Source of the DNA: Pedobacter namyangjuensis
GTDB lineage: Bacteria > Bacteroidota > Bacteroidia > Sphingobacteriales > Sphingobacteriaceae
Direction of reading: 5' to 3'
Length of the DNA stretch: 64,000 nt
NCBI RefSeq assembly: GCF_003313325.1
Contig: NZ_QMHQ01000001.1
Span: 682,001-746,000 of the forward strand
A program made the translations under genes and the position numbers. The notes below the pieces were generated by a model that saw only the letters and a list, made by a program, of their open reading frames with translations, had not been told where the DNA came from and ran no database searches. Positions 9,775 to 61,844 of the stretch are shown here, piece after piece. Within the stretch, counting starts at the first letter, position 1; the number at the start of each line of letters is the position of its first letter.

Positions 9775-10020
9775 ACAATCTGTATTTATCTTTGTGCATC
9801 TCTGGCCAAACCATTAAGGCAAAACAGGATTTGAATTAGGCCTGAATACAATCTGCTACTAGAATGTAACGATCAATAGCTTCACAAGAAACAATCCGTG
9901 TTTATCTGTGGTCAAACCATTGAGGCAAAACAGGATTTGAATTAGGCCTGAATACAATCTGCTACTAGAATGTAACGACCAATAGCTTCACAAGAAACAA
10001 TCTGTGTGCATCTGTGGTAA
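9775..10020. repeat. 106-bp tandem repeat in gene-free gap (about 2.3 copies)
   Basis: From about 9807 to 9912 and again 9913 to 10018 the sequence repeats with a 106 bp period (AAACCATTRAGGCAAAACAGG... to ...CTTCACAAGAAACAATC). Only scattered substitutions separate the copies. A partial, 10 bp longer start precedes them at 9775. The text CTGTGTNNATCTGTGG at the junctions resembles a common dispersed intergenic repeat in this phylum. No convincing gene lies in 9702-10062. Confidence 0.75.
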
Positions 10021-42069: not shown

Positions 42070-43850
42070 CTCGCCTCGGTTCACCGCCACCGTTGGCTCT
42101 TTCTTTTGGCTTGAACCAAAAGAAACAAAAGTTCAAGGCTGACGTCTCCTAACTGCGGATCATACGTCAATTGTTTTTAACCACAAAATGAGCCGTTACG
42201 GTCGAAAAGACCTGCACTTCTCCATTTTGCTGATTACGCTAGAGAGAAATGGTTTTTGAAACAATTAACTACGCTCCTTGCCAGGATACGAAGGCCGTAC
42301 TTGTGTAATGGCAATGCAACTGCTATTTGCACTGGCCAAAAAGCGCAGGTCAGAAGGAATGGTCGGCCACGAGTTGGCCTGTGGGCGGAAGCATCGTTCT
42401 TGTGGTATTAATCTGTTTATATTGTTTTGAATGGCATTAATGAGTTCACTAAGAGCTCGGTTTTTGGGTACTTTTACATCAAGGCAAAAGTATCTTTCCT
42501 CGCGGAAAAGAGCGGAGAAAACATCCTTTTTCCATTCGCTCCTCCTTGCCTCAACTCACCGCCGTTGAAAGGCTCTTTCTTTTGGCTTGAACCAAAAGAA
42601 ACAAAAGTTCAAGGCTGACGTCTCCCAACTGCGGATCATACGTGAATTGTTTTTAACCACAAAATGAGCCGTTACGGTCGAAAAGACCTGCACTTCCCCA
42701 TTTTGCTGATTACGCTAGAGAGAAAATGTTTTTGAAACAATTAACTACGCTCCTTGCCAGGATACGAAGGCCGTCCTTGTGTAATGGCAATGCAACTGCT
42801 TTGCACTGCAATAAGAGCGCAGGCCAGAAAGAACGGCGGGCCACGCGTTGGCTTGTGGATGGAAGCATCGTTCTTTCTTGTGATATTAATCTGTTTATAT
42901 TGTTTTGAATGGCATTAATGAGTTCACTAAGAGCTCGGTTTTTGGGTACTTTTACATCAAGGCAAAATTATCTTTCCTCGCGGAAAAGAGCGGAGAAAAT
43001 ATCCTTTTTCCATTCGCTCCTCCTTGCCTCAACTCACCGCCGTTGAAAGGCTCTTTCTTTTGGCTTGAACCAAAAGAAACAAAAGTTCAAGGCTGCCGTC
43101 TCCTAACTGCGGATCATACGTGAATTGTTTTTAACCACAAAATGAGCCGGTACGGTCGAAAAGACCTGCACTTCTCCATTTTGCTGATTACGCTAGAGAG
43201 AAAAAGTTTTTGAAACAATTAACTACGCTCCTTGCCGGGTTACGAAGGCCGTCCTTGCGTAATGGCAATGCAACTGCTATTTGCACTGCAATAGGAGCGC
43301 AGGCCAGAAAGAACGGCGGGCCACGCGTTGGCTTGTGGTTGGAAGCATCGTTCTTTCTTGTGGTATTAATCTGTTTATATTGTTTTGAATGGCATTAATG
43401 AGTTCACTAAGAGCTCGGTTTTTGGGTACTTTTACATCAAGGCAAAATTATCTTTCCTCGCGGAAAAGAGCGGAGAAAACATCCTTTTTCCATTCGCTCC
43501 TCCTTGCCTCAACTCACTGCCGTTGAGAGGCTCTTTCTTTTGGCTTGAACCAAAAGAAACAAAAGTTCAAGGCCGACGTCTCCCAACTGCGGATCATACG
43601 TGAATTGTTTTTAACCACAAAATGAGCCGTTACGGTCGAAAAGACCTGCACTTCTCCATTTTGCTGATTACGCTAGAGAGAAAAAGTTTTTGAAACAATT
43701 AACTACGCTCCTTGCCGGGATACGAAGGCCGTCCTTGCGTAATGGCAATGCAACTGCTATTTGCACTGCAATAGGAGCGCAGGCCAGAAAGAACGGCGGG
43801 CCACGCGTTGGCTTGTGGGCGGAAGCATCGTTCTTTCTTGATGTTTTGGG
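42070..43850. repeat. tandem array of about 480-bp repeats (class GG/CC, body B)
   Basis: Four 38 bp cores of the GG/CC class at 42100-42137, 42576-42613, 43054-43091 and 43534-43571 mark four units with periods of 476, 478 and 480 bp. Each unit has the core, body B (with CCACAAAATGAGCC and GGTCGAAAAGACC), a 53 bp inverted-repeat module AGAAAGAACG...CGTTCTTTCT (intact at 42826-42878, 43306-43358 and 43786-43838; degenerate near 42350), an ATTAATCTGTTTATATTG stretch, and a TACTTTT...AAAAGTA hairpin. Units are nearly identical, so recent duplication or gene conversion is likely. No transposase is encoded. Confidence 0.9.
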
Positions 43851-48627: not shown

Positions 48628-49734
48628 ATGACAACAGAAAGTCAGCAACATATTAATAATGAAACCAACGAGATCTCCCTTAAAGACCTCATCTTGAGAA
48701 TCCGAGAATGGTGGCGATACCTTTTATCTAAATGGATGATCATCCTAGCCTTTGGATTATTAGGTGGAGCTTTAGGTTTTTTCTACGCAACTACCAAAAA
48801 ACCTATTTATACCGCTACAACTACTTTTGTTTTAGAAGATGAAAAACTAGGTGGAGGGGGCTTAGGTTCACTAGCAGGCCTAGCTTCTATGGCAGGAGTG
48901 GATGTGGGAAGTGGTGGTGGAATTTTTCAAGGGGATAACATTTTTGAATTGTATAAATCTAGAAGAATGGTGGTGCAAACTTTGTTAACTGAGGTTATTG
49001 ACAATGGTAGGAAAGAAACCTTAATAGACCGCTACCTTTATTTTAATGATTTTAAAAACAAATGGAAAGACAAAGTTGAATTAGCGGAGTTATCATTTAA
49101 ACCTGACACGTTGTTAAATGGAAACCTGAGTTTGAAGCCAAACAGACTGAGAGATAGTATATTAAATTCTATCGTCTCTGAAATCAATAAAAACTGTTTA
49201 ACTGTCGAAAAGTCAGATAAGAAGCTTAGTATCTTGAAGGTAGATGTGAAATCCAAAGATGAATTCTTTTCAAAAGCGTTCAATGAAGCTATCGTTGGTA
49301 ATGTAAATGAATTTTATTTACAAACTAAAACTAAAAAATCCCTTCAAAATGTTCAAATCATGCAGCAAAAAGCAGATTCTGTACGAGCAGTGATGAACGG
49401 TGCGATCTATGAAGCAGTAGCCATTGCAGATGCCACACCTAATTTAAATCCTACCAGACAGGTTCAAAGGGTTGCACCGGCCCAAAGAGCACAGTTCTCT
49501 GCTGAGACTAATAAAGCTATTTTGAGTTCTTTAGTCCAGAATTTGGAGATGTCTAAACTGGCTCTGATGAAGGATACACCTTTACTTGAAATTATTGACA
49601 AGCCAATATATCCTTTAGATAAACAAAATTTTGGGAAAATAAAAGGTATAGGCTTAGGTGGATTCTTATTCGGCTTTTTGGCGGTTTTTTTTCTAACAAC
49701 ACGTAGAGCGCTAAGGAGCGTTTTTTATCTTTAA
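48628..49734 (+). CDS. Wzz-like chain-length determinant protein
   Basis: 368 residues. Two transmembrane helices flank a periplasmic domain: helix 1 about 35-57 (WMIILAFGLLGGALGFFYA) and helix 2 about 332-352 (GFLFGFLAVFFLTT). The N-terminal cytoplasmic stretch ISLKDLILRIREWWRYL matches Wzz/FepE family members. There is no C-terminal Walker kinase domain, so it is the Wzz type and not a Wzc tyrosine kinase. A Gly-rich LGGGGLGSLAGLASMAG region follows the first helix. It would set polymer length with the Wzy-like protein and the export protein. It opens the long overlapping operon to 61.8 kb. Confidence 0.88.
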   Translation: MTTESQQHINNETNEISLKDLILRIREWWRYLLSKWMIILAFGLLGGALGFFYATTKKPIYTATTTFVLEDEKLGGGGLGSLAGLASMAGVDVGSGGGIFQGDNIFELYKSRRMVVQTLLTEVIDNGRKETLIDRYLYFNDFKNKWKDKVELAELSFKPDTLLNGNLSLKPNRLRDSILNSIVSEINKNCLTVEKSDKKLSILKVDVKSKDEFFSKAFNEAIVGNVNEFYLQTKTKKSLQNVQIMQQKADSVRAVMNGAIYEAVAIADATPNLNPTRQVQRVAPAQRAQFSAETNKAILSSLVQNLEMSKLALMKDTPLLEIIDKPIYPLDKQNFGKIKGIGLGGFLFGFLAVFFLTTRRALRSVFYL

Positions 49735-49742
49735 AAAGTAGT

Positions 49743-50390
49743 ATGATCATTTTATCACATAGAGGTTATTGGCTTACCGAGCACGAGAAAAATACTAAAG
49801 AGGCTTTTGAGCGATCGTTCAAGCTTGGATTTGGCACGGAAACGGATATCAGAGACCTAAATGGAAAATTAGTTATAAGCCATGATATACCCCATATTCA
49901 GGATGCTAATATTTTTGTTGAAGACTTTTTCGACATTTATAAAAAACACAATAAGAATTTACCCTTAGCTCTGAATATAAAATCGGATGGATTAGTTCAG
50001 GAATTGGTTTCTCTTTTGCGGAAATATGAAATACATAATTATTTTGTATTTGATATGTCGGTGCCAGATGGTTTATCTTATATCCGGCAGAATGCGAATG
50101 TATTCACTAGGCAAAGTGAATATGAATTGGAACCGTCATATTATTCTGAATCAATGGGGGTTTGGTTAGATGAGTTCAAGCATCATTGGATCGATAGTAA
50201 GACTATTACTAATCACCTTAATAGGGGAAAGAAGGTATGCATTGTTTCACCAGAATTACATAAACGTAATTACTTCGATGAATGGAAAGACTACAAGGAT
50301 ATAGATTCTAAAATTTTAGTAAATGGAGAGCTAATGATATGTACGGATAAACCTATAGAAGCTAGAGAATATTTCAATGAAAAAAATTAA
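49743..50390 (+). CDS. glycerophosphodiester phosphodiesterase-like (PI-PLC/GDPD fold)
   Basis: 215 residues, short for GDPD. The active-site pattern is conserved: HRG at the N-terminus (LSHRGYW), Glu and Asp in GTETDIRD, and the second His in VISHDIPHIQ. That indicates metal-dependent hydrolysis of a phosphodiester. No signal peptide, so it should be cytoplasmic. It is the first gene of a cassette with a HAD phosphatase (14 bp overlap), two nucleotidyltransferases and a cupin. In such a position it may process a phospho-sugar or glycerol-phosphate unit. Substrate unproven. Confidence 0.8.
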   Translation: MIILSHRGYWLTEHEKNTKEAFERSFKLGFGTETDIRDLNGKLVISHDIPHIQDANIFVEDFFDIYKKHNKNLPLALNIKSDGLVQELVSLLRKYEIHNYFVFDMSVPDGLSYIRQNANVFTRQSEYELEPSYYSESMGVWLDEFKHHWIDSKTITNHLNRGKKVCIVSPELHKRNYFDEWKDYKDIDSKILVNGELMICTDKPIEAREYFNEKN

Positions 50391-51006
50391 AGCTGTTATA
50401 TTTGACATGGACGGTGTTTTGATAGATGCAAGGGAATGGCATTTTGAATCACTTAATAAAGCACTAAACTTATTCGGTGCAGAAATTACTAGATACGATC
50501 ATTTAACTACTTTCGACGGACTACCTACCAAAAAGAAATTGGAGATGTTAACAGCCGTTGCGGGTTTCCCCGTAGGTTTGCATCAGTTTGTCAATGATTT
50601 AAAGCAACAATATACAATGGAAATTGTATACTCTAATTGTAAACCTGTATTTCAACAACAGTATGCCCTTTCTAGATTAAAGAAAGATGGTTACAATTTG
50701 GCAGTATGCTCAAATTCAATTGCCAAAACTGTTGAGATTATGATGGAGAAATCATCACTTTTAAATTATTTAGATTTTTTCTTATCCAATCAAGACGTAG
50801 TTAACGGAAAACCTGATCCAGCTATATATAATTTGGCTATTTCAAGATTAGGCTTAATGCCAGAAGAATGCTTGGTTGTAGAAGATAACGAACATGGTAT
50901 TAGGGCTGCCCTTGATTCGGGAGCACATGTGCTAATGGTCGACAGTCCTGATGATGTTCATTATTATAATATAATAGATAAAATAAAGGAGATAGAAAAT
51001 GCTTAA
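50377..51006 (+). CDS. HAD-superfamily phosphatase (beta-phosphoglucomutase/IA type)
   Basis: 209 residues. HAD motif I FDMDGVL (Asp10 and Asp12), motif II CSNS, motif III Lys in GKPDP and motif IV VVEDNEHGI. The cap domain begins after motif I, as in subfamily IA. It probably removes phosphate from, or isomerises, a sugar phosphate before or after nucleotide transfer. It overlaps the GDPD-like gene by 14 bp and the next gene by 8 bp. The exact substrate cannot be read. Confidence 0.85.
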   Translation: MKKIKAVIFDMDGVLIDAREWHFESLNKALNLFGAEITRYDHLTTFDGLPTKKKLEMLTAVAGFPVGLHQFVNDLKQQYTMEIVYSNCKPVFQQQYALSRLKKDGYNLAVCSNSIAKTVEIMMEKSSLLNYLDFFLSNQDVVNGKPDPAIYNLAISRLGLMPEECLVVEDNEHGIRAALDSGAHVLMVDSPDDVHYYNIIDKIKEIENA

Positions 51007-51730
51007 GATAATAATACCACTTGCCGGGTCTTCAGAACTGTTCGCAAATGCAGGTTACTACTATCCCAAACCTTTGATAGAGGTCAAAGGCATCCCTATG
51101 ATCCAAACAGTTTTAAATAACCCATTATTACTTGACGTTGAAAAATCTTTTATTTTCATAATTAAAGTGGAAGATGCAAAGAAATTCCATCTGGATAGCA
51201 CATTAAGAATACTTGCCCCTAATTGTGAAATCATCAAAATTGATAATGATACAAAAGGTGCGCTATGTAGCGTAATGCTCGCAGTTGATAAAATAGATCC
51301 TCAGGATGAGGTTTTGATATTAAATGGCGATCAAGTGATTGATGAACCACTTGGCCAAATTTATAAATATTGGAAGAAATTAGATGCACCTGCTGGTCTG
51401 ATCACTTTTACCTCAGTACATCCTAGATGGTCATATGCAAGACTTATAGATGGCATAGTAGTGCAGACAGCAGAAAAAAATCCTATTAGTAACTACGCAA
51501 TTGCTGGAGCGTATTATTTCAAAGTTGCAAGTGCCTTTTTTAGTGCTGCTTTTAGATCGATTAAGGAAGGTGTTCATTTGGATGGAATGTTTTTCATTTC
51601 ACCAGTAGTTAACCAATATGTACTAAATGCTGAAAATGTTTTTGCCTATAAGATAGATAATAAAAAATATCATTTATTTTATTCTCCTCAAATGTTGCAG
51701 GAATACGAGAGAAATTTTCAGAATATATGA
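50999..51730 (+). CDS. sugar nucleotidyltransferase-like protein, atypical signature
   Basis: 243 residues with an NTP-transferase fold: IIIPLAG at the N-terminus, KPLIEVKGIPMIQ, then LILNGDQVI as the metal Asp segment. The signature loop that in the neighbour 52047-52772 reads AGEGSRF here reads AGSSELF, so the Arg that holds the nucleotide phosphates is replaced by Leu. The enzyme may be inactive, have another donor mode, or act as a partner of its neighbour. Overlap with the HAD gene is 8 bp and with the cupin gene 4 bp. Confidence 0.7.
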   Translation: MLKIIIPLAGSSELFANAGYYYPKPLIEVKGIPMIQTVLNNPLLLDVEKSFIFIIKVEDAKKFHLDSTLRILAPNCEIIKIDNDTKGALCSVMLAVDKIDPQDEVLILNGDQVIDEPLGQIYKYWKKLDAPAGLITFTSVHPRWSYARLIDGIVVQTAEKNPISNYAIAGAYYFKVASAFFSAAFRSIKEGVHLDGMFFISPVVNQYVLNAENVFAYKIDNKKYHLFYSPQMLQEYERNFQNI

Positions 51731-52044
51731 AAGTATTTAAGATCAAAGATATGTTTAAGGGGTGGTTTATTGGCAATTTTGAACCTAGCCTTTTTAAGAC
51801 TAACGACGTGGAAGTCGGTCTAAAGGAATACAAAATGGGAGACTATGAAGGTGTTCATTATCACAAAATAGCTACTGAATATACCGTAATCGTTTGTGGC
51901 CAGGTTGAAATGAACGGAATAGAGTACAATGAGGGTGATATCCTTGTAATTGAACCATATGATAAAACTGATTTTAAAGCATTAACAGATGTCAAAACGT
52001 TGGTAGTCAAATTGCCGGGCGCTAATGACGATAAATTTATATAA
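51727..52044 (+). CDS. small cupin-domain protein
   Basis: 105 residues. The cupin metal-binding motif HYHKIATEYTVI (HxH-x4-E) is present, as is a second strand pattern ending GDILVIEP. Such cupins in glycan loci act as sugar-nucleotide isomerases or as small-ligand sensors. It overlaps the previous gene by 4 bp and precedes the second nucleotidyltransferase by 2 bp. No further specificity can be seen. Confidence 0.75.
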   Translation: MKVFKIKDMFKGWFIGNFEPSLFKTNDVEVGLKEYKMGDYEGVHYHKIATEYTVIVCGQVEMNGIEYNEGDILVIEPYDKTDFKALTDVKTLVVKLPGANDDKFI

Positions 52045-52046
52045 TT

Positions 52047-52772
52047 ATGATAAACATAGTGATACCGATGGCGGGGGAAGGTAGCCGTTTTGTGAAAGCA
52101 GGTTTCAGTAAGCCTAAACCATTTATTGACGTTGATGGGCAGCCTATGATTGTTAGAGTGATGGAAAATCTAAAATATCAAAATGCTCATTTTATTTTGA
52201 TTGGTAGAAAAGATCATTTAACAAAGGAGAAAGCGCTCGTAGATAAAATAATTGCGGATTATGATGCAGAGTTCATTTCAATTGATAAATTGACTGAAGG
52301 TACCGCGTGCACAGTTCTTTTTGCAATGCCGCAAATAAATACTGATAAACCATTATTGATCGCAAATTCTGATCAGCTCATTGATATAAACATATCTGAT
52401 TTCGTTAAAGATTGCTTTGAAAGAAATTTAGACGGGTCAATATTGACTTTTCAAGATAAAGAATTGAACCCAAAATGGTCTTTTGCAAAGATTCGACAAG
52501 ATGGCCTTGTCGATGAGGTAAAAGAAAAGGAGGCGATATCATCATATGCGACAATAGGAATTTACTTATTTTCAAAAGGTAAAGATTTTGTTGATTCTGC
52601 TGTGCGTATGATAATTGAGAATGAAAGGGTTAACAATGAGTTTTATACTTGCCCCGTATATAATTATTCAATAGATCTGGGAAAAAAAATTGGCGTTTTT
52701 GACATCCCAGTTGAAAAAATGCATGGCATTGGTACACCTGAAGACTTAGAAGAATATTTAAAGCTAAAGTAA
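52047..52772 (+). CDS. sugar nucleotidyltransferase
   Basis: 241 residues. The intact signature loop PMAGEGSRF, then KPKPFIDVDGQPMI with the conserved Lys, and LLIANSDQLID as metal Asp segment. The family joins an NTP and a phosphorylated sugar or alcohol. It is a paralog of the gene 50999-51730 (same length and order of motifs), with one cupin gene between. Together with HAD and GDPD-like genes it suggests activation of a non-standard building block for the polysaccharide. Confidence 0.8.
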   Translation: MINIVIPMAGEGSRFVKAGFSKPKPFIDVDGQPMIVRVMENLKYQNAHFILIGRKDHLTKEKALVDKIIADYDAEFISIDKLTEGTACTVLFAMPQINTDKPLLIANSDQLIDINISDFVKDCFERNLDGSILTFQDKELNPKWSFAKIRQDGLVDEVKEKEAISSYATIGIYLFSKGKDFVDSAVRMIIENERVNNEFYTCPVYNYSIDLGKKIGVFDIPVEKMHGIGTPEDLEEYLKLK

Positions 52773-52777
52773 GAGTC

Positions 52778-53482
52778 TTGGAAAATTTATCGATACTAAT
52801 TCAGGGACCAACATGTTATTGGCGTGAACAAGTACGAGCCTTTAATGGAATTAATGATATTTTATGGGTAACCTGGGATACAGAACCAGCCGAAAATATT
52901 GCTTTCATTGAATCCCATGGCATTGAAGTTATACAGATATCAATGCCTGAGACCAAAGGCTATTGGAATCTAAATCTTCAATGTAGCACATCATATTATG
53001 GAATTGAATATTTGTCGAATAGAAAGCATGCGGATAATATAATTAAAATAAGGTCTGATATGATATTTAGCAATTTCAAGAAATTCTATTTGAATAATAA
53101 GCAATTGTTTTTCGAATCTTCTGATCTTATATTTTTAGGATATATTGAAAATTCGAAAGAAGCATATTTGCTGGATTATATTGTAGCTGGATCAATTAAG
53201 AATATGCTAAATTTTTGGAAGCCGTCTGAGGCTAAAGATTTTGGATTACCTTATCCTGAAGGATGTTTGCAGAAAAGGTATTATGGCTTTAATCCAATAG
53301 AGACAAAAAGATTTCCTAAGTTTTTCGATCTTAATGCGGTAAGGATTTTTTGGTTGAAGCAAAGAGTCACCTTAAATTTTTATAGATCAGATATGTTTTT
53401 ACGTACAACTATTGCATCACCTATCCGGCGGTTACTGAACTATAAAGAGAAGTTTTTGTTATTTTGTGAGCGTTACAGATGA
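52778..53482 (+). CDS. WavE-like glycosyltransferase
   Basis: 234 residues from a TTG codon: the next Met is about 50 residues in, past the conserved opening LSILIQGP, so TTG is likely used. The text ILIQGPTCYWREQV, ILWVTWDTEP and ADNIIKIRSDMIF matches the WavE lipopolysaccharide synthesis family. The last contains a D-rich site possibly for donor binding (RSDMIF). It lies 5 bp after the nucleotidyltransferase and overlaps the flippase start (ATGA). It may transfer the unit made by the preceding five genes. Confidence 0.75.
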   Translation: MENLSILIQGPTCYWREQVRAFNGINDILWVTWDTEPAENIAFIESHGIEVIQISMPETKGYWNLNLQCSTSYYGIEYLSNRKHADNIIKIRSDMIFSNFKKFYLNNKQLFFESSDLIFLGYIENSKEAYLLDYIVAGSIKNMLNFWKPSEAKDFGLPYPEGCLQKRYYGFNPIETKRFPKFFDLNAVRIFWLKQRVTLNFYRSDMFLRTTIASPIRRLLNYKEKFLLFCERYR

Positions 53483-54912
53483 CGAAAGGCGGGGGAAGTT
53501 TTGTTTCAAATTATATTTTATACTTGTTAACTCAAGCATTAAATTTGGTTACGCCTTTTATAGTTCTGCCAATAATTTCTAAAAGATTGGGAATTATTGG
53601 TATGGGTGATGTTAGCTACGTGATTGCAATAAGTCAAGTTTTTATAACAATAGGTGCAGCTGGCTTATTAAATTATGGGAATAGAAAAATATCCAGTTCG
53701 TTAAATGTAGTTTCTGACTTTAGACTATTGTTTTCCATTCAGATAATAACATCGATCTTATCATATGCATTCTTTTTGGTTTACATAAAAAAATTTGAAG
53801 AACAGTATAACCATTACTTTTTTATATCATCAATAGGTGTGTTAGCAAATATTTTTGATTTTTCATGGTATTTCATATCTCAAAATAAAATTAAAAATAT
53901 AACCATTAGAAATTTATTTGTAAAGGTAATCATGATCCTTGGGATACTATTTCTGGTGAAGAATCGCGAGGATATATTGGTTTACCTATATATATATTTT
54001 GGCACGACATTCTTGCTAAATTTGCTCATGTGCGGTTTTATTCATTCAGATCACTTCAAAATATGGAAAATTAAATTGCAACAAATTTTACAGGAACTAG
54101 GAAAGGTCTTCATATTCTTTATTCCAACGATGTTAATGTTGGTGTATGCATCTTTTGATAAAATCTTATTAGCAAAGATTGTAAATAATGAGTCATTAGT
54201 AATTTATGACAATTCTTTAAAAATTATTACGATTCTCTGCGTCTTAACTGCCTCACTAAGTCCTTTGATGGTGGCGCGTATGTCAAAAACGGAGGAGGGC
54301 GATATTAAAAAACTAGTTGGATTCTCTCTGTCTTTTGTATGTTACTTTTCATTTCCTATGGTGTTCGGTATAATCGCTATATCTGAAAATTTAGTAAATG
54401 TTTTGTTTGATAAGTCATTTAATGGTATGATACAGTCTATGCGTATACTTGCTCCTATAATATTTTTTATAGGATTGGGTGATATAATGGTTAATCAAAT
54501 TATAATCTCAACCAATAAAGATAGACAATATATAATAGTAATGGCTTCAATGGTAATCACTTCTTTATTATTAAATCTTTTGCTTATACCGATTTTTGGA
54601 GTCACAGGTGCTTCAGTAAGTAATCTATTATCTCATTTTTTAATATTGGGTGTAGAATATTATTTCTGCAGAAATTATATTAACATCAAATTGCTGTTAA
54701 CCGTTAGTTTTGCTCCATTTATCGCGTCGATAATAATGATGTTAGTGATCCAAAATTTAGATATTTTTCCAGTTCAAAGTATGAATATGATTATAAAAAT
54801 ACTTGTGGGTATGGCAATTTTCGTCATTTTGAATCATATTATGAAAACAAAGTTTCAACAAGAAGTGCTTTCTTATGCACTACTAAAATTAAAAAAAAGA
54901 AATGAGAAGTAA
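53479..54912 (+). CDS. wzx: oligosaccharide flippase (Wzx-like)
   Basis: 477 residues with 12-14 transmembrane helices, typical of the MATE-like polysaccharide transporter family. The opening NYILYLLTQALNLVTPFIVLPIISKRLGIIGMGDVSYV and the IVNNESLVIYDNSLKI-type loop fit Wzx proteins. It moves undecaprenyl-pyrophosphate-linked repeat units across the inner membrane. Overlaps its neighbours on both sides (4 and 11 bp). AT-rich, with many ATA and AAA codons. Confidence 0.9.
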   Translation: MTKGGGSFVSNYILYLLTQALNLVTPFIVLPIISKRLGIIGMGDVSYVIAISQVFITIGAAGLLNYGNRKISSSLNVVSDFRLLFSIQIITSILSYAFFLVYIKKFEEQYNHYFFISSIGVLANIFDFSWYFISQNKIKNITIRNLFVKVIMILGILFLVKNREDILVYLYIYFGTTFLLNLLMCGFIHSDHFKIWKIKLQQILQELGKVFIFFIPTMLMLVYASFDKILLAKIVNNESLVIYDNSLKIITILCVLTASLSPLMVARMSKTEEGDIKKLVGFSLSFVCYFSFPMVFGIIAISENLVNVLFDKSFNGMIQSMRILAPIIFFIGLGDIMVNQIIISTNKDRQYIIVMASMVITSLLLNLLLIPIFGVTGASVSNLLSHFLILGVEYYFCRNYINIKLLLTVSFAPFIASIIMMLVIQNLDIFPVQSMNMIIKILVGMAIFVILNHIMKTKFQQEVLSYALLKLKKRNEK

Positions 54913-56026
54913 AGTATTAATTGTTTTTGGTACGCGTCCAGAAGCCATAAAGATGGCGCCGCTAGTAAAAGAATTTAAGCTACACGCAAAATCTTTTGAT
55001 GTTAAAGTTTGTGTTACTGCCCAACATAGAGAGATGTTAGATCAAGTTTTGAATTTTTTTGATATTATACCAGATTACGACCTTAATATTATGAAACCTG
55101 GGCAAAATTTATTTCATTTGACAGCTGACGTAATAACTGGCATGAAGCCAGTTATAGAAGCTTTTAATCCTGATTATATTTTTGTTCACGGAGATACAAC
55201 TACATCCACAGCTACCGCATTGGCTGGATTTTACGCTGGTGTCACAGTATGCCATGTTGAAGCGGGCTTAAGGACGCATAATATCCATTCTCCGTTTCCT
55301 GAGGAGATGAATAGACAAATAACCGGTAGAATAGCAGGATGGCATTATGCACCCACAGAAAAATCCAAGTACAATTTAGCCACGGAAAACATTTCTAATA
55401 CTAAGATACTGGTAGTAGGTAATACAGTTATAGATGCGTTATTCTTGGCTCTCGAAAAGTTAAAAAACTATGAGGATGAAGAAATTTTATTTCTTAAAAA
55501 AATTATTGATCCAAATAAAAAAATTATACTAGTGACTGGACATCGGAGAGAAAATTTTGGAGAAGGATTTAAAAACATATGCATAGCGTTGAAAGATGTT
55601 TCCGAATTAGAAAATGTACAAGTTATATATCCTGTGCACTTAAATCCGAATGTTAAAAATATTGTTTTTGAAATGTTGGGAAATGCAGATAATATAAATC
55701 TAATTAACCCGCTGTCATATCCAGCATTTGTTTGGCTGATGAATCGGAGTTACGTTATATTGACTGATAGTGGTGGCATCCAGGAAGAAGGACCAAGCTT
55801 AGGTAAGCCTATATTGGTAATGAGAAATACCACTGAAAGACCTGAGGCAGTTGATGGGGGAACTGCAAAGTTGGTTGGTACCGACGTAAAAAAAATCGTG
55901 TATGAAGTGAAAACTCTTTTAAATGATAAAAGTTATTATGAAAGTATTAGCTCATCCAAAAACCCATATGGTGATGGTACTACAAGTAAACAAATTATTG
56001 ACCACCTATTGACCATAAAATTATAA
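54902..56026 (+). CDS. wecB: UDP-N-acetylglucosamine 2-epimerase (non-hydrolysing)
   Basis: 374 residues. The family signature is complete: FGTRPEAIKMAPLV, TAQHREMLDQVL, VHGDTTTSTATA, HVEAGLRTHN, TGHRREN, DSGGIQEEGPSLGKP and TERPEA. It interconverts UDP-GlcNAc and UDP-ManNAc. With the 6-dehydrogenase at 39885, UDP-ManNAcA could be made. It overlaps the flippase gene by 11 bp and the next glycosyltransferase by one base. Confidence 0.96.
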   Translation: MRSKVLIVFGTRPEAIKMAPLVKEFKLHAKSFDVKVCVTAQHREMLDQVLNFFDIIPDYDLNIMKPGQNLFHLTADVITGMKPVIEAFNPDYIFVHGDTTTSTATALAGFYAGVTVCHVEAGLRTHNIHSPFPEEMNRQITGRIAGWHYAPTEKSKYNLATENISNTKILVVGNTVIDALFLALEKLKNYEDEEILFLKKIIDPNKKIILVTGHRRENFGEGFKNICIALKDVSELENVQVIYPVHLNPNVKNIVFEMLGNADNINLINPLSYPAFVWLMNRSYVILTDSGGIQEEGPSLGKPILVMRNTTERPEAVDGGTAKLVGTDVKKIVYEVKTLLNDKSYYESISSSKNPYGDGTTSKQIIDHLLTIKL

Positions 56027-57105
56027 TGTCGAAATATGATTCACTCAATGTAAAAAATGAACTCGTTTTCGTAGCGAATTTTCCTAGTACGGAATTAGAA
56101 AAAAAAGAAGGCATGGCTCAAAGGATACTTGCAGTTGACCAACACTTTAAAAGTTACAGGAGAATATACTTACAAATCTCTTTTTTACAGTTTTTAAAAA
56201 AAAAGACGGTTAATGTAGAAGAAAATTGTGTTCAATTAAGTGTTAACCTATTTTTCCATTTTTTCACTATTATAAAAATTTTTAAAAGGTCTCGGGCATT
56301 ATATTTTCATTCTATGATAAATGTAATGCCGTCTATTATTCCTGTATTATTAGCACCTAAAAGGAAGATTATATTGGATATACATGGAGTTGTTCCTGAA
56401 GAAAATTACTTTACTGGAAGGAAATTGATGGGTATGATTTATTCATTAGCCGAATCTATTATCTTTAAGAGATTAACAATTGCTCTGTGTGTTTCTCAAG
56501 CAATGATTGACTTTTATAAAAAGAAATATAAAAATTCAAGAACTAATTATGTGATTTACACGATTTTGCCAGCTAATTTAGCGTTTAATCAAAACGTGTT
56601 TGTAGATGAACCAAGTGATGTTACAAATATAGTATACAGCGGAAACGCCCAAAAATGGCAAAACGTAGATTATATGGTGCAACTTATAAAACAAAATTTA
56701 TCTCAAAAGATATATTATTATATACTGACTGGAGAACCCGACAAGATGAAGGTTTATTTCGATAAATATGAAGTGCCCCATTCTAATTATACCCTTAAAT
56801 CTGTCCATCCTGACAAGCTTTATGAATTCTATCAGAAAGCTCATTATGGTTTTATTCTTCGGGACGATGTCATTGTTAATAAGGTTGCATGCCCGACAAA
56901 AATGGTAGAATATTTGCAATACGGAATAATTCCAATTGTAAAGACTCCATTCATAGGGGATTTTCATAGCCTAGGATATGAATTTGTTTGTGATTCAGAT
57001 TTTTCATCATCGTTACTGCCAAATAAATCTATTAAAAACAAACTTATTGCAGAAAAAATGAAAACTGAATATAATGCGATTGATTTAAAATCACTTTTAG
57101 ATTAA
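56026..57105 (+). CDS. glycosyltransferase, GT-B fold (GT4-like)
   Basis: 359 residues. N-terminal nucleotide fold about 10-190 (IILDIHGVVPEENYF) and C-terminal domain with YSGNAQKWQNVDYMV and KVACPTKMVEYLQYGIIPIV, the GT4 donor-binding region with the E of the EX7E motif. It transfers a sugar to the lipid-linked repeat unit in the cytoplasm. Starts at the TAATG overlap of the epimerase gene; the next gene begins 7 bp later. Specificity unknown. Confidence 0.8.
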   Translation: MSKYDSLNVKNELVFVANFPSTELEKKEGMAQRILAVDQHFKSYRRIYLQISFLQFLKKKTVNVEENCVQLSVNLFFHFFTIIKIFKRSRALYFHSMINVMPSIIPVLLAPKRKIILDIHGVVPEENYFTGRKLMGMIYSLAESIIFKRLTIALCVSQAMIDFYKKKYKNSRTNYVIYTILPANLAFNQNVFVDEPSDVTNIVYSGNAQKWQNVDYMVQLIKQNLSQKIYYYILTGEPDKMKVYFDKYEVPHSNYTLKSVHPDKLYEFYQKAHYGFILRDDVIVNKVACPTKMVEYLQYGIIPIVKTPFIGDFHSLGYEFVCDSDFSSSLLPNKSIKNKLIAEKMKTEYNAIDLKSLLD

Positions 57106-57112
57106 ATGGATT

Positions 57113-58006
57113 ATGAAACCAAACTTAGATAATAAAACAATTTCAGTAGCTATAGCAACATATAACGGGTCTAAATATTTAGGGCAGTTAATGGAGTCAT
57201 TGTTACAACAAACGGTAATCCCCGATGAAATATTTATTGTAGATGATTGTTCAGTTGATGATACGCTTGAAATAATAAAATCTTACAATGATAAGTATCC
57301 TTTTATAAGATACATTGTCAATAAGGTTAACTTAGGCGCCATTGAATCCTTTAAATTAGCAGTTAGTAATTGCAATGGAGTTTATACAGCATTATGTGAC
57401 CAAGATGATATCTGGAAGCCTAATAAACTGGAAATTAGCATTAAAACTTTAAAAGAAATAGATATTGAAAATAAACCGGCTTTAATTTACACAGATCTGT
57501 CAATAATCGATAATCAGGGCGGTTTATCTAAAATTTCATTTTGGGAATCACTTGGAATGTGTCCAGAAAGAGAAAGCTTCAAAAGTAGTATGTACGGCAA
57601 CATTGCTACAGGTTGCACAATGGTTTTCAATAAACATATGAAAAGGGAAATGTTGTTAATGCCAGAAACTGTATTAATGCATGATCATTGGCTGGCAATG
57701 ATTGCTTACGGATTTGGGAATATAAAAGCTGTTAACCTATCAACAGTCTTTTACAGGAGCCATGCTGAAAGTGTTACCGAAAAAAAAAGAATTAATATAT
57801 TTAGAAAAATTGAAGTTTATATAAAGTTAATATTTAGGGAAGATGATTATCTATTAAAAAACATATATCAAGCGAAATCTTTCAAAAACATGTATTTTTC
57901 AAGATTAACTATCCAAAAAAAGCTCGTTTTGGAGCAGTTCATATTGCTGAGAGATAGATCTCTAATTGTAAAAAAAATAGCTGCATTTAGAAAATACACC
58001 AATTAA
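57113..58006 (+). CDS. glycosyltransferase family 2
   Basis: 297 residues. GT-A motif: VAIATYNGSKYLGQL, then IVDDCSVDDT (nucleotide contact), and CDQDDIWKP, the DXD-like metal site. The H-loop region MHDHWLAMIAYG lies near residue 190, as in GT2 rhamnosyltransferases. Rhamnose transfer would fit the nearby rmlBCDA genes but cannot be proven. Overlaps the following polymerase gene by one base. Confidence 0.9.
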   Translation: MKPNLDNKTISVAIATYNGSKYLGQLMESLLQQTVIPDEIFIVDDCSVDDTLEIIKSYNDKYPFIRYIVNKVNLGAIESFKLAVSNCNGVYTALCDQDDIWKPNKLEISIKTLKEIDIENKPALIYTDLSIIDNQGGLSKISFWESLGMCPERESFKSSMYGNIATGCTMVFNKHMKREMLLMPETVLMHDHWLAMIAYGFGNIKAVNLSTVFYRSHAESVTEKKRINIFRKIEVYIKLIFREDDYLLKNIYQAKSFKNMYFSRLTIQKKLVLEQFILLRDRSLIVKKIAAFRKYTN

Positions 58007-59205
58007 TGGCATTCTTGCATGTAATCAAATATCAATCTGTTATTGATTTTCTATTTGTAATAGTTGTATTCATAACCACGCGACAGGTGCCATTCTCAAT
58101 GCTATCGCCCCTAATGAATATCGCTTTAGTATTATTGGTAGTTTTCTCCTTATATAGATACAGGCTTAATTCAAACGAGATCAAAATCGTCATAAGTCTT
58201 TTGCTTCTTCCATTAGCCTTTTCTTTTTTTTATTCATCAATTCTAACTGACAACAAACTGTCGTTAGCTTTGAGGTTTTTTATAATTTTAATATCAATTG
58301 GACTGGCATACTTTGTTAAAGTTAGTGAACGTGCATTAAAATGGTTTATTTATCTGTGCGTTTTTCAAAGCTTCTGCCTTATTCTTGCGTTATTGTTCAT
58401 TTATATCTTCGTAGGTTATGAAAATTATCTACCAGTTAGATTTTATGTTCAACAGCAAGGCTGGGGAGATTTGTATACTTACAACGGTATTTTCTATAGA
58501 ATACAAATAAAGGGTAGTGCGTTACTAGTAATCGCCTTTATACTAAATGTAGAAACGGATCTAATTAAGTCTAAACTAGTTGTTGCAATGTTTCTTTTAA
58601 TTGGAATAATTCTTGCTGGCAACTTTGCATTTCTAATTTCGATAGCCATATATTTTCTATATATGGTATTAAGATTGAGAAATAAAAGATCATTGAATTA
58701 CTATCAATTAAGTTTATTTGCTCTGGGGATTTGTTTGATTTTCATACTACCGTATGCATATAATTTCGTCGTTTCAACTCTAGCAGATAAAAAGGATGAA
58801 TCATTAGGCGCAAGATATGATCAAACACAACAACTATTAAAAGACCTATTTAGAGATGCTTTTTCATTAACATTAGGAAGAGGACTTGGAAATACTTTAG
58901 ATGTGACGACCCAGTTTAGAAATTACAGTGGTTTATCTTACTATGAATTACAAGTTGTTTATTTATTCAATCAACTAGGGATAATATTTTCTTTTTGTTA
59001 CCTTCTCTACCAGTCCATTATTGTATCATTAAAGTGGGGAAGATCAACATATATTGTTATTATATATATTATTTACCTAATTTATTCAGTCACAAATCCA
59101 TATATATTCGACACAAACCACTTTATTGTTATCGTAGTTTTAAATTCGCTAATTATTTATGATCGTGAGAAAAGGTGTACGAATTATTTAATTGAACCAT
59201 GTTAA
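58006..59205 (+). CDS. Wzy-like polysaccharide polymerase (multi-spanning)
   Basis: 399 residues with about 10 transmembrane helices and a large extracytoplasmic loop (about 145-175 and again at 255-320: RGLGNTLDVTTQFRNYSGLSYYELQVVYLFNQLG). The hydrophobic pattern, its length and its place between glycosyltransferases match O-antigen/capsule polymerases. Wzy sequences diverge greatly, so this rests on topology and context. It would join the flipped repeat units in the periplasm. Confidence 0.75.
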   Translation: MAFLHVIKYQSVIDFLFVIVVFITTRQVPFSMLSPLMNIALVLLVVFSLYRYRLNSNEIKIVISLLLLPLAFSFFYSSILTDNKLSLALRFFIILISIGLAYFVKVSERALKWFIYLCVFQSFCLILALLFIYIFVGYENYLPVRFYVQQQGWGDLYTYNGIFYRIQIKGSALLVIAFILNVETDLIKSKLVVAMFLLIGIILAGNFAFLISIAIYFLYMVLRLRNKRSLNYYQLSLFALGICLIFILPYAYNFVVSTLADKKDESLGARYDQTQQLLKDLFRDAFSLTLGRGLGNTLDVTTQFRNYSGLSYYELQVVYLFNQLGIIFSFCYLLYQSIIVSLKWGRSTYIVIIYIIYLIYSVTNPYIFDTNHFIVIVVLNSLIIYDREKRCTNYLIEPC

Positions 59206-59255
59206 AAGCATATATAATTTGTACAGAATAATTACCAGAATTTACTATAATAAAA

Positions 59256-60152
59256 ATGAACAAAAATAAAGTTGCATCAGTAATTGTACTTTACAATCCA
59301 AATTGGGAATTGTTAACCAAAGTTATCAACGCCGCCTCGTCGCAAACTTCAACGGTTTTCGTCGTAGATAACAGTGAAACTGACAATAAATCAGAAATCG
59401 AAAAACGATTTAGTTATTTTGACAATTTGGTTTATAAATCTTTAAGAAAGAATGTAGGAATTGCTAAGGCTCAAAATATTGGTGTTGAATTAGTTAAAGG
59501 TGGGGGGAGTGAGTATATTATCTTTTTTGATCAAGATAGCATACCTGTTGATGGCTTAGTTGAGGCTTTACTGCTGGATTTTATTCACCTGAGAAAAAAT
59601 AATGTTGCTGTTGCGACCATTGGCCCTATGCCGTTGAATAGCCAAACTAATGAGTTTTATAAACCGAGGCTTAGAAAGAATAAAAAGATAATTATTGAAA
59701 ATTTAGATTTTTATACCACAAAACAAATAATTAGTTCTGGGGGATTAATGTGTGTAGAAGATTTTGAAGTTATAGGTAATTTTGAAGAGGGATTATTTAT
59801 AGATGGAGTTGATCATGAATGGTGTTGGAGAGCGATACGATATAATTATTTTGTGTTTCTGTCGCCTAGGGCAACATTAGTGCATAGTTTAGGAGATGGT
59901 GATAAAAAAATTCTCGGAATTAAAATAGCTACTACTTCATCGTTTAGATTGTATTATCAATACAGAAATTATGTAATTTTGTCATTTAGAAGCTATGTAC
60001 CTACGTACTGGAAACTAAATAATTTAATAAAATATTTGATTAAAGCGATTTATTACCCAGTTGTGAGGAAAGATTTAAAATTATTTACACGCATTTTTAC
60101 TGGCATAAAGGACGGTTTCGATATAGTCTTAAATAAAACAAATGCAAAATAG
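59256..60152 (+). CDS. glycosyltransferase family 2 (rhamnosyltransferase-like)
   Basis: 298 residues. GT-A fold: VIVLYNPNWELLTKVI, VVDNSETDNKSEI, and FFDQDSIPV as the DXD-like motif. Further on, DGVDHEWCWRAIRYNYFVFLSP matches the WbbL-type rhamnosyltransferases with the HEW(C)WR catalytic segment. dTDP-rhamnose from the rmlBCDA genes would be the likely donor. The ORF starts 50 bp after the polymerase stop and overlaps the next glycosyltransferase by 11 bp. Confidence 0.88.
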   Translation: MNKNKVASVIVLYNPNWELLTKVINAASSQTSTVFVVDNSETDNKSEIEKRFSYFDNLVYKSLRKNVGIAKAQNIGVELVKGGGSEYIIFFDQDSIPVDGLVEALLLDFIHLRKNNVAVATIGPMPLNSQTNEFYKPRLRKNKKIIIENLDFYTTKQIISSGGLMCVEDFEVIGNFEEGLFIDGVDHEWCWRAIRYNYFVFLSPRATLVHSLGDGDKKILGIKIATTSSFRLYYQYRNYVILSFRSYVPTYWKLNNLIKYLIKAIYYPVVRKDLKLFTRIFTGIKDGFDIVLNKTNAK

Positions 60153-60957
60153 GTTTTCGGTTTTATTGTCGTTGTATGATGGAGAAGTAGAGAGTCATCT
60201 AGAACAAGCTCTACATAGTCTTTGGATACAAAAGTTGAAGCCTGACCAGGTTGTCATAGTATTTGACGGTATTTTACGAAATGGCTTGGTTACGATTGTA
60301 AATAGCTTTTTAAATAAACTTAATGACCTAACTATTATTAAATTAGAATCAAATATTGGCTTAGGCAGGGCACTAAACATAGGCTTGAAACATTGCAGGT
60401 ATGAGTTAGTAGCCCGTATGGATACAGATGATATATGCTATATTGATCGATTTGAAAAACAAATTAATCACATGATTTTATATCCAGAAATTGCTGTTCT
60501 AGGTTGCTCTGTTCAAGAATTCAATACAATGCCCAATGATCTAGGCCTTTACAGACACTTACCCATAAATATGTGCCAAATATTAACTTTTGCTAAATTT
60601 AGAAATCCTTTAAATCATCCAAGCGTTGTATTTAGAAAAACTAAAATTGCAATTGTTGGTTCTTATGTAGATATGCCGTTATTTGAGGACTATTTCTTAT
60701 GGATTAGGGTCTTAGAACAAGGCTTGACAATAGAAAATCTATCCGATGCTTTACTTCATTTTAGAGTTGGCAATGATATGATTGGTAGACGACACGGATT
60801 ATCATATTTAAAAAAGGAAGTTAATTTTTTGAAGGAAATTAAGAAAAGGAAATTCATCAACGATACACAATTCTTTCTATCACTTATAACTAAGGCCCCT
60901 CTTAGACTCATGCCGAAATTTATGTTAAGGGTATTCTATAAAAAAATCTTGCGATGA
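60142..60957 (+). CDS. glycosyltransferase family 2 (paralog A)
   Basis: 271 residues. GT-A motifs: SVLLSLYDGEVESHLEQAL, VVIVFDG, NIGLGRALNIGL, and ARMDTDDI as DXD site, then NHPSVVFRK and PLFEDYFLWIR. It is colinear with the gene 62238-63098 (ARMDTDDI, NHPSIMFRK, PLFEDYSLFLK). Thus the two are homologous. It overlaps the following SDR gene by 4 bp and the preceding gene by 11 bp. Confidence 0.9.
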   Translation: MQNRFSVLLSLYDGEVESHLEQALHSLWIQKLKPDQVVIVFDGILRNGLVTIVNSFLNKLNDLTIIKLESNIGLGRALNIGLKHCRYELVARMDTDDICYIDRFEKQINHMILYPEIAVLGCSVQEFNTMPNDLGLYRHLPINMCQILTFAKFRNPLNHPSVVFRKTKIAIVGSYVDMPLFEDYFLWIRVLEQGLTIENLSDALLHFRVGNDMIGRRHGLSYLKKEVNFLKEIKKRKFINDTQFFLSLITKAPLRLMPKFMLRVFYKKILR

Positions 60958-61844
60958 AAATAATTCTAACGGGAGCATCGGGCTTTCTCGGCAGATTTGT
61001 CTACAAGGAATTGGCAAATGAACATGAAGTTGTAACAGTTTCTAGGCTAGGTGCAAGCGTAAATGCTAACTTAGCAATAGAGATTCCTAAACTGCCTTCG
61101 GCTAGTTTGGTGATACATTGTGCCGGTAAAGCCCATTCAATACCTAAAACAATAGAAGAAAAGAAAGCTTTTTTTGATGTAAATTTAACTGGAACAGCAA
61201 ACCTAATAAATGGCTTAGAGGATAGTAATGAATTGCCAAAAGCTTTTGTTTTTATCAGCACTGTAGCTGTATATGGATGTGAATATGGTAACATGATTGA
61301 CGAAAATCATCCGCTAGACGCAAATGATCCATATGGATTGAGTAAAATTCAAGCTGAGCGGTTAATACAAAAGTGGTGCACAGAAAATAATGTGATTTGT
61401 ACGATACTTCGTTTACCGCTTTTAGTAGGTGAACATCCTCCAGGAAACTTAGGCTCTATGATCAAAGCAATTAGAAAAGGCTATTATTTTAATATCGGAG
61501 GTGGTAAGGCAAAAAAAAGTATGGTATTCGCTGAAGACGTGGCGAAAATAATTCCTACAAGTGCTAAAATTGGAGGCGTCTATAATCTCACTGACGGTTA
61601 TCATCCATCATTTGCTGAAATTTCTGAAAGTATAGCGGCCAAGTTAGACAAAGTTAAACCTTTCAATATACCGATATGGTTCGCTAATGTTTTAGCGCTT
61701 GTTGGCGCTTTATTTGGTAATAAGGCTCCTATAAATATCAGAAAAATGAGGAAAATTACAAACGATTTAACCTTTGATGATAGAAAGGCTAGAACATTAT
61801 TAGCTTGGAAACCTAAATCTGTTTTAAATAATTTGAGTTTATAG
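60954..61844 (+). CDS. NAD-dependent epimerase/dehydratase family SDR (probable 4-keto reductase, copy A)
   Basis: 296 residues, extended SDR. Rossmann TGASGFLG (6-13), VIHCAGKAH, active-site Thr/Ser in FISTVAVYG and catalytic YGLSK. Similar SDRs in capsule loci reduce a 4-keto-6-deoxyHexNAc, for instance in UDP-QuiNAc or FucNAc synthesis; substrate is inferred. It overlaps the glycosyltransferase upstream by 4 bp. A paralogous SDR follows another paralogous glycosyltransferase at 63101. A gap of 393 bp follows. Confidence 0.85.
   Translation: MKIILTGASGFLGRFVYKELANEHEVVTVSRLGASVNANLAIEIPKLPSASLVIHCAGKAHSIPKTIEEKKAFFDVNLTGTANLINGLEDSNELPKAFVFISTVAVYGCEYGNMIDENHPLDANDPYGLSKIQAERLIQKWCTENNVICTILRLPLLVGEHPPGNLGSMIKAIRKGYYFNIGGGKAKKSMVFAEDVAKIIPTSAKIGGVYNLTDGYHPSFAEISESIAAKLDKVKPFNIPIWFANVLALVGALFGNKAPINIRKMRKITNDLTFDDRKARTLLAWKPKSVLNNLSL

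Follow-up and report, generated by a model that had tools for sequence, protein, structure and literature searches.

What do six tightly packed genes, lying in a 64,000-nucleotide stretch of the Pedobacter namyangjuensis genome (contig NZ_QMHQ01000001.1; hereafter the window), make together? The set encodes a GDPD-like protein, a HAD-family enzyme, two nucleotidyltransferase-like proteins (NTA and NTB) with a small cupin between them, and a WavE-like protein. A first-pass annotation had proposed that these proteins make and add a non-standard activated unit. Our favoured explanation, to which we assign a probability of roughly 0.6, is that the first five genes form a horizontally moving module that makes a nucleotide-activated non-standard unit, here termed X, and that the sixth, WavE-like protein adds X to the repeat of a surface polysaccharide. 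Fusion of HAD to NTB in a cyanophage, together with the complete motifs of NTB, suggests the making of an activated unit, and the WavE-like protein suggests its transfer.

The six genes are one conserved unit and not a chance group. A pattern scan of genome contigs yielded 412 stretches coding for proteins related to the GDPD-like one, and the 80 best were fetched. The gene-neighbourhood comparison that the first-pass annotation had called for recovers the set: within 5.5 kb of the GDPD-like gene, 79 of the 80 loci have the HAD gene, 73 have at least two nucleotidyltransferase-like genes and 70 have a cupin gene, and the gene order of the window is kept in 46. Where enough flanking DNA is available (66 loci), HAD is found in 65 and two nucleotidyltransferase-like genes in 64, the exceptions being L053 and L091. 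In 76 of 79 loci no more than 200 nucleotides separate the end of the GDPD match from the start of the HAD match, the median between aligned parts being 1 nucleotide (open reading frames, ORFs, were called as the longest frame and some start too early; inter-gene distances were measured between the aligned parts). The order of all six genes in Pedobacter chinensis (L030) is identical to that of the window. Hosts of the loci include Bacteroidota, Pseudomonadota, Campylobacter, Helicobacter, Pseudanabaena, Nostoc, Planctomycetota, Elusimicrobia and Sporomusa, and the five-gene set, present in many phyla and on plasmids, is mobile. Nearly all of the 80 loci examined (of 412), Campylobacter jejuni among their hosts, carry most of the set; given this spread, a widespread pathway seems to be without a named product.

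The five genes also appear to have travelled together. Their pairwise distances correlate for all gene pairs across 65 loci (Mantel rho 0.37-0.60, the largest of 200 permutations for any pair being 0.21, with loci that are non-independent and species relatedness uncorrected). Among 296 genomes of the phylum, drawn regardless of gene content, HAD relatives (E <1e-30) occur in only three, namely the window's own genome (G000), G079 and G292; close GDPD relatives (E <1e-60) occur in the same three, and weaker GDPD matches in five more. NTA has no match in 35 other genomes of the genus, which suggests either acquisition of the cassette or its ongoing loss within the genus. Gene fusions point to consecutive or joint action: NTA is fused to NTB in L025, L026 and L029 (Azospirillum and Rhizobium plasmids), and HAD is fused to NTB in cyanophage S-CAM9 (L028, 6341-7726), among glycosyltransferase genes.

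Several variants of the set were seen. A third, more degenerate nucleotidyltransferase-like gene lies 3' of the NTA-NTB fusion (L025 9946-10668, L026 9898-10578, L029 9912-10619), and no cupin was found in these Azospirillum and Rhizobium loci. A divergent form in L018 (8114-11431) and L019 (8546-11863) comprises a GDPD-like protein (32-33%), a fusion of two nucleotidyltransferases, and GtrA-like and GT2-like proteins; genes for a class II aldolase-like and another HAD-like protein lie close by. The labels other than GDPD and nucleotidyltransferase are our own reading. A SnoaL-like ORF of about 111 amino acids occurs in 13 of the 80 loci, including L033, L036, L039 and L041 (for example L039 10720-11055), and lies between NTA and the cupin in the loci inspected; Pfam was tested on the L039 copy only.

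Residue counts for the individual proteins were taken from 87 loci plus the window, rows with less than 70% coverage or without a match being dropped, which leaves 87 rows for the GDPD-like protein, 85 for HAD, 80 for NTA, 82 for NTB and 73 for the cupin. NTB lies above the cut-off of PF00483 (2.7e-10), matches PDB entry 4evw (1.3e-14) and keeps the GxGxR, PKP and NxDQ residues of a nucleotidyltransferase in 80-82 of its 82 rows. NTA, 33% identical to NTB and likewise above the PF00483 cut-off (1e-7), has Arg at the GxGxR position in only 2 of 80 rows, with Lys24 kept in 71 and Asp111 in 76; each row was assigned to whichever of the window's two proteins it matched better by BLAST, an assignment that may shift intact copies to NTB. 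As judged from these motifs, only NTB of the two carries the complete set, and NTA would be a catalytically degenerate partner. The HAD protein is a member of the general family (Pfam HAD_2, 7.4e-32) that matches PDB 3kbb (8e-19) and has Asp10, Asp12, Ser112, Lys145 and Asp170 invariant in all 85 rows; against the beta-phosphoglucomutase model TIGR02009 it reaches 111.8 bits (4.5e-32), below the cut-off of 153.35, and it is best regarded as beta-phosphoglucomutase-like, a putative phosphatase or mutase.

By sequence the cupin has only a Pfam match below cut-off and no useful match in the PDB. Its predicted model (pLDDT 96.7) is a double-stranded beta-helix with the HxH...E arrangement of a metal cupin: His44, His46 and Glu51 are invariant across the 73 rows. 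In the second motif, Asp occupies position 82 in 62 of them, and no His is among the commonest residues at positions 82, 83 and 85. Among the top-scoring folds are archaeal phosphomannose isomerases of the cupin type (7zvy, Z 12.8; 7zvm, Foldseek 1.6e-6), tied with KdgF and DddK, so that a sugar isomerase role is only suggested. A common-sugar pathway was considered and rejected: no equivalog stands above its cut-off among the NCBIfam matches listed for NTA, NTB, HAD (25 of 47) and the cupin.

The sixth protein has no Pfam match at E 0.1, and the window's genome has no match to PF07507, the WavE family, at 0.001; Pfam alone does not place it there. Three comparisons nevertheless mark it as a short, remote relative of WavE. 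With its positional counterpart in P. chinensis (L030) it shares 45% identity; BLAST relates it (1e-8) to a WavE protein of Ruegeria (L024) that itself matches PF07507 at 8.5e-12; and hhalign aligns its four-row alignment with a WavE alignment at 98.2% (3.6e-14) over about 150 N-terminal residues, the first member of the WavE alignment scoring 199 bits for PF07507 (cut-off 27).

WavE genes are associated with the cassette. PF07507 is rare in the phylum, occurring in 1 of 198 genomes; that genome is G079, where GDPD, HAD and NTA adjoin WavE and the contig ends soon beyond. Similarly, of 274 genomes from the class to which G351 belongs, two have it, including G351, itself a cassette genome. Above the Pfam cut-off, 41 of 78 cassette genomes have it (10/19, 26/50 and 5/9), the 78 being the genomes of all fetched GDPD-like loci except L109 and L041 (same genome as L036); the first 20 loci were chosen non-blind, WavE having already been seen in some, and later searches covered the remaining 59 genomes. 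In each of the WavE searches, 0 of 14 control genomes matched. A WavE-like protein lies within the fetched DNA of 43 of the 80 loci, a count obtained with models built from proteins of those same loci. On plasmids, the WavE query matches 9 of 72,556 records and the GDPD-like protein 27, and six records have both (CP017294, AP025274, CP054057, CP029835, NC_016588 and CP065364).

The other three plasmid records with WavE (Caballeronia L115, Citrobacter L116 and Legionella sainthelensi L117) carry a different enzyme set in the WavE locus. This EcbF/BcbF-type set, also seen in Grimontia L113, consists of a small HAD, a kinase-like protein and a nucleotidyltransferase, the kinase-like protein being fused to a nucleotidyltransferase-like domain except in L. 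sainthelensi, where it is separate. The small HAD of Citrobacter matches TIGR01689 (EcbF-BcbF) at 2.4e-49, above cut-off; the other EcbF-like small HADs match via models built partly from themselves. The Grimontia nucleotidyltransferase matches PDB 4evw, presumably a V. cholerae protein, at 4e-94. Like the cassette, this set occurs with WavE and combines a HAD enzyme with nucleotidyltransferase-like domains; unlike it, it uses another HAD family and has a kinase-like domain in place of GDPD and cupin. We take the name EcbF/BcbF to be linked to Pasteurella capsule genes, and we know of no function for the set; nor, to our knowledge, has one been assigned to the WavE family, a rare family that gains testable partners now that two different enzyme sets are seen to occur with it.

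A further protein family is found in 12 of the 80 loci, typically after NTB (L033 13383-14171, L034 13043-13822, L036 9216-9992), and a cyanophage S-CAM9 protein (L028, 7726-8454) resembles it; the two members tested, from L036 and L028, have no Pfam match. Where WavE is missing, this family may supply the transferase instead. The V. cholerae core contains fructose, and fructose was considered as the transferred sugar. It was dropped: in the available part of the source, HS1.08 of C. jejuni HS1 is the only protein reported as a fructose transferase (PMC7901785).

Assembled into a pathway, these parts would act as follows. A cytoplasmic GDPD-like protein would open a phosphodiester, releasing an alcohol or sugar that carries the phosphate; HAD would shift or remove the phosphate, and the cupin might isomerise the carbon skeleton; NTB, with NTA as its catalytically degenerate partner, would couple X-phosphate to a nucleoside triphosphate; the WavE-like protein would transfer X or X-phosphate; and Wzx would export and Wzy polymerise the product. 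The cassette has no kinase, dehydrogenase or aldolase, and the source of X-phosphate would therefore be either general metabolism or the GDPD step. We favour its supply by phosphodiester opening, with low confidence.

The open-licence literature assigns no function to the set among the matches listed, in a weakly specific search that leaves room for a description elsewhere, and the initial failure to recognise a described pathway stands. The conserved, mobile cassette is thus undescribed in searchable papers; its kind, the nucleotide-activated precursor module of a surface-glycan locus, is known. The nearest published counterpart is an insertion, CJSA_1357-1362, in the capsule locus of C. jejuni IA3902 (HS1/8), whose genes are listed by BLAST label without function in the part of the report available: in order, a 619-amino-acid dTDP-glucose pyrophosphorylase, a 109-amino-acid 'Unknown', a 111-amino-acid ketosteroid isomerase, a 241-amino-acid glycosyl transferase, a 219-amino-acid haloacid dehalogenase and a 212-amino-acid 'Unknown' (PMC7901785). 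Nine of the ten genes inserted in IA3902 are stated there to be highly conserved with HS65 (PMC7901785). Matched by table and not by sequence, the insertion resembles the cassette in order, size and label, and differs from it in an additional SnoaL-like gene, whose length of about 111 amino acids fits the 'ketosteroid isomerase', and in a different transferase. The same layout is found, by sequence, in C. bilis (L045) and C. jejuni GP013 (L101), and in another Campylobacter locus (L046) kpsC/kpsS-like genes, by our own reading, adjoin the set, a capsule setting. A segment of the Pantoea locus (L093 9300-12290), sought as a link to a known O-antigen structure, had no blastn match in an E. coli collection of 5,426 genomes.

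Several observations weigh against the making of X by the five-gene module and its transfer by the WavE-like protein. The main one, against a simple capsule-part reading, comes from IA3902 itself: in the text available, its capsule showed only the HS1 structure and a single additional methyl phosphoramidate, with 'no evidence of a second CPS' (capsular polysaccharide; PMC7901785), unless the product goes elsewhere or was not made under those circumstances. WavE is also far from universal, 37 of the 80 loci having no WavE-like protein in the fetched DNA and 37 of the 78 cassette genomes none above the Pfam cut-off, the window's own genome being without a PF07507 match. Nor is every WavE gene next to the cassette: in G351 it is on a separate contig with a different set as its neighbour, and one WavE gene (L112) has neither enzyme set in the 11.8 kb available. 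Some rhizobial copies (L029) are outside any recognisable polysaccharide locus and, over 14.6 kb, lack any match to the cupin or to WavE-like proteins. Finally, the loci were retrieved with patterns of the GDPD-like protein and only the top 80 of 412 were fetched, which may favour intact sets.

The proposal of the first-pass annotation therefore survives in outline: the unit is real, it stands in a polysaccharide locus and the expected kinds of parts are present. Its family labels are upheld for HAD (HAD_2), for both nucleotidyltransferase-like proteins (PF00483), and for the predicted cupin and GDPD folds. What had to be qualified is that only NTB is motif-complete, NTA having lost its motif Arg, that the GDPD-like protein has Asn in place of a canonical Glu, a probable metal ligand, and that the WavE relationship is remote.

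Pfam and NCBIfam models do not match the GDPD-like protein; its AlphaFold model (pLDDT 95.4, built from 33 sequences) has the TIM-barrel fold of GDPDs over the whole chain, with 3no3 and 2pz0 tied as best matches (Z 21.4, root-mean-square deviation 2.4 A, 197 residues). Like canonical GDPDs (3no3, 2pz0 and B. subtilis GlpQ, 5t9c), it has the catalytic and metal set, His6, Arg7, Glu33, Asp35 and His47 being kept in 84-86 of 87 rows; it differs in its identity to them, 15-19% in structural alignments, and in having Asn78, two residues before a conserved Lys, where Glu is found in the canonical GDPDs from L022 and L009 that were aligned with it. That Glu we take to be the third metal ligand of canonical GDPDs. 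Asn78 is present in 87 of 87 rows, a count biased because one of the two search patterns for GDPD-like relatives included it; copies retrieved without patterns (L018, L019 and the plasmid copies) likewise carry Asn. The protein thus probably departs from canonical GDPDs at a metal ligand. Its frame starts at the first GDPD motif (HRG, residues 6-8), with no N-terminal extension and no room for a signal peptide, and the protein is therefore probably cytoplasmic. Two minor observations concern this protein: one stretch of PDB entries 7wwc and 7ww4, titled beta-1,3(4)-glucanase, matches the model (Z 21.1), and in the C. jejuni GP013 assembly (L101 1550-2041) the GDPD-like frame is shortened at its 5' end.

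Supply by hydrolysis, that is, phosphodiester opening, would be the leading role for this step, at somewhat under even odds; synthesis from a nucleoside diphosphate-linked unit (NDP-X) seems rather unlikely and clean-up of a labile NDP-X improbable, the rest going to something else. In the synthetic case the GDPD-like protein would act after NTB, moving a phosphate-linked unit from NDP-X to a hydroxyl to give a sugar phosphodiester and a nucleoside monophosphate (NMP), an alternative that we hold to be unlikely for the cassette as a whole. It has a precedent in AvrBs2, a GDE-like protein with canonical catalytic residues that converts UDP-galactose to a cyclic sugar phosphodiester and UMP, according to the available part of its description (PMC12807533). 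It would also suit a protein that keeps the His/Glu/Asp set with the conserved Glu replaced by Asn in all 87 rows, and a gene that, in 65 of the 66 loci with sufficient flanking DNA, has at least one nucleotidyltransferase-like gene nearby. Against it, that account (PMC12807533) describes a further family motif within the active site of AvrBs2 (R544 and D547) and of agrocinopine synthase, and the motif is apparently absent from our short protein, in which His47 and Asn78 are 31 residues apart with no insertion relative to canonical GDPDs; R123 (84 of 87) and E/D126 (87 of 87) are conserved elsewhere in it, the AvrBs2 motif having been compared by description only. This clade resembles the GDPD-like protein in having a GDE-like domain with canonical residues, and would share sugar-phosphodiester chemistry with it; as far as that source goes AvrBs2 and its relatives differ as effector or opine enzymes outside polysaccharide loci. 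If the protein were a synthase, a biosynthetic class would be added, beside AvrBs2, to a family known mostly for breakdown. The bolder version, also unlikely, is that a GDPD-fold synthase with an altered metal site acts on the NTB product in an undescribed route to a phosphodiester-linked or new surface-glycan unit, for which WavE-type proteins would be the matching transferases, fed elsewhere by the EcbF/BcbF-type set.

Similarly doubtful is the idea that the cassette holds unfamiliar enzymes for a known activated alditol or glycerol: CDP-glycerol, CDP-2-glycerol or CDP-6-D-glucitol. CDP-2-glycerol is a known activated unit, and a GDPD could supply glycerol 3-phosphate; against this, the Pfam and NCBIfam matches of NTA and NTB include no model for a glycerol 3-phosphate cytidylyltransferase. 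That a polysaccharide-locus enzyme can activate a non-anomeric phosphate is clear from HS5.18, a fructose 6-phosphate cytidylyltransferase that yields CDP-6-D-fructose, in the portion of the report available (PMC10918830). The CDP-6-D-glucitol pathway (HS5.18/HS5.17) resembles the cassette in that a nucleotidyltransferase of a polysaccharide locus activates a phosphate, and differs in having two genes, one for a reductase, and that portion names neither a HAD nor a GDPD nor a cupin as part of it. CDP-6-D-glucitol needs the reductase, and no NAD(P)-dependent reductase stands beside the nucleotidyltransferase genes among the cassette's six. Should the product prove to be a known unit, the cassette would be a genome marker predicting it.

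An improbable third alternative makes the GDPD-like protein and HAD a clean-up pair, a labile activated unit decaying to a cyclic phosphate and NMP, the GDPD-like protein opening the ring and HAD removing the phosphate. Some furanosyl nucleotides do decay to cyclic phosphates, and the pair lies side by side in 76 of 79 loci, as for consecutive steps. The cyanophage fusion argues the other way, tying HAD to NTB, while no phage record matches the GDPD-like protein at 1e-3, nor any viral contig by patterns. A chance group of common polysaccharide genes, which often shuffle in such loci, is rejected as virtually impossible, given the co-presence and order conserved across phyla, the distance correlations, the same three of 296 genomes and the gene fusions; of the two outcomes that the first-pass annotation had named as fatal, this one and a known pathway for a common sugar, both were looked for and neither was found.

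Returning to the window and to the favoured module with its WavE-like transferase, the six forward-strand ORFs lie exactly where they were first placed, stop codons counted in, and the ORF list agrees that they overlap or abut: the junctions are, in order, overlaps of 14, 8 and 4 nucleotides and gaps of 2 and 5. The run extends beyond them in both directions.

Table 1. Features of the cassette and of the gene run that contains it.
Feature	Position	Strand	Length	Basis
GDPD-like protein	49743..50390	+	215 aa	AlphaFold model and residue conservation
HAD-family phosphatase or phosphomutase, beta-phosphoglucomutase-like	50377..51006	+	209 aa	Pfam HAD_2
NTA, nucleotidyltransferase-like, motif Arg lost	50999..51730	+	243 aa	PF00483
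Small metal-type cupin	51727..52044	+	105 aa	Predicted fold and HxH/Glu
NTB, nucleotidyltransferase, complete active-site motifs	52047..52772	+	241 aa	PF00483
Short WavE-like transferase, TTG start	52778..53482	+	234 aa	BLAST and hhalign
Co-directional run: Wzz-like, cassette, Wzx-like, WecB-type epimerase, glycosyltransferases, Wzy-like, epimerase-like	48628..61844	+		
Wzy-like gene	58006	+		Reading of sequence
Epimerase-like gene	60954	+		Reading of sequence

The Wzz-like gene ends at 49734, 8 nucleotides 5' of the GDPD-like gene; its label, like the two last in the table, is our reading of the sequence. Downstream, ORFs overlap or are at most 50 nucleotides apart as far as the end of the run, beginning with a Wzx-like flippase at 53479 (Pfam Polysacc_synt_3 match) and a WecB-type epimerase at 54902 (TIGR00236, above its cut-off). 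Judged by these Wzz-like, Wzx-like, WecB-type, glycosyltransferase and Wzy-like neighbours, the cassette is the first part of the variable section in a polysaccharide locus of the Wzx/Wzy type. G+C content is 0.29-0.35 from 49000 onward versus 0.39-0.45 in the preceding 7 kb. Promoter-like sites (97 versus a mean of 76.9 in shuffles) and terminator-like sites (10 versus 7.4) are uninformative, and no tRNA genes were found in the window. Just 5' of the polysaccharide locus, at 42095-43840, a 480-bp unit is repeated in tandem (3.7 copies, 95% matches), and this unit or its parts match 28 places in the genome, the array included. A second direct repeat, of 106 bp in 2.1 copies with 92% matches, occurs at 9793-10018.

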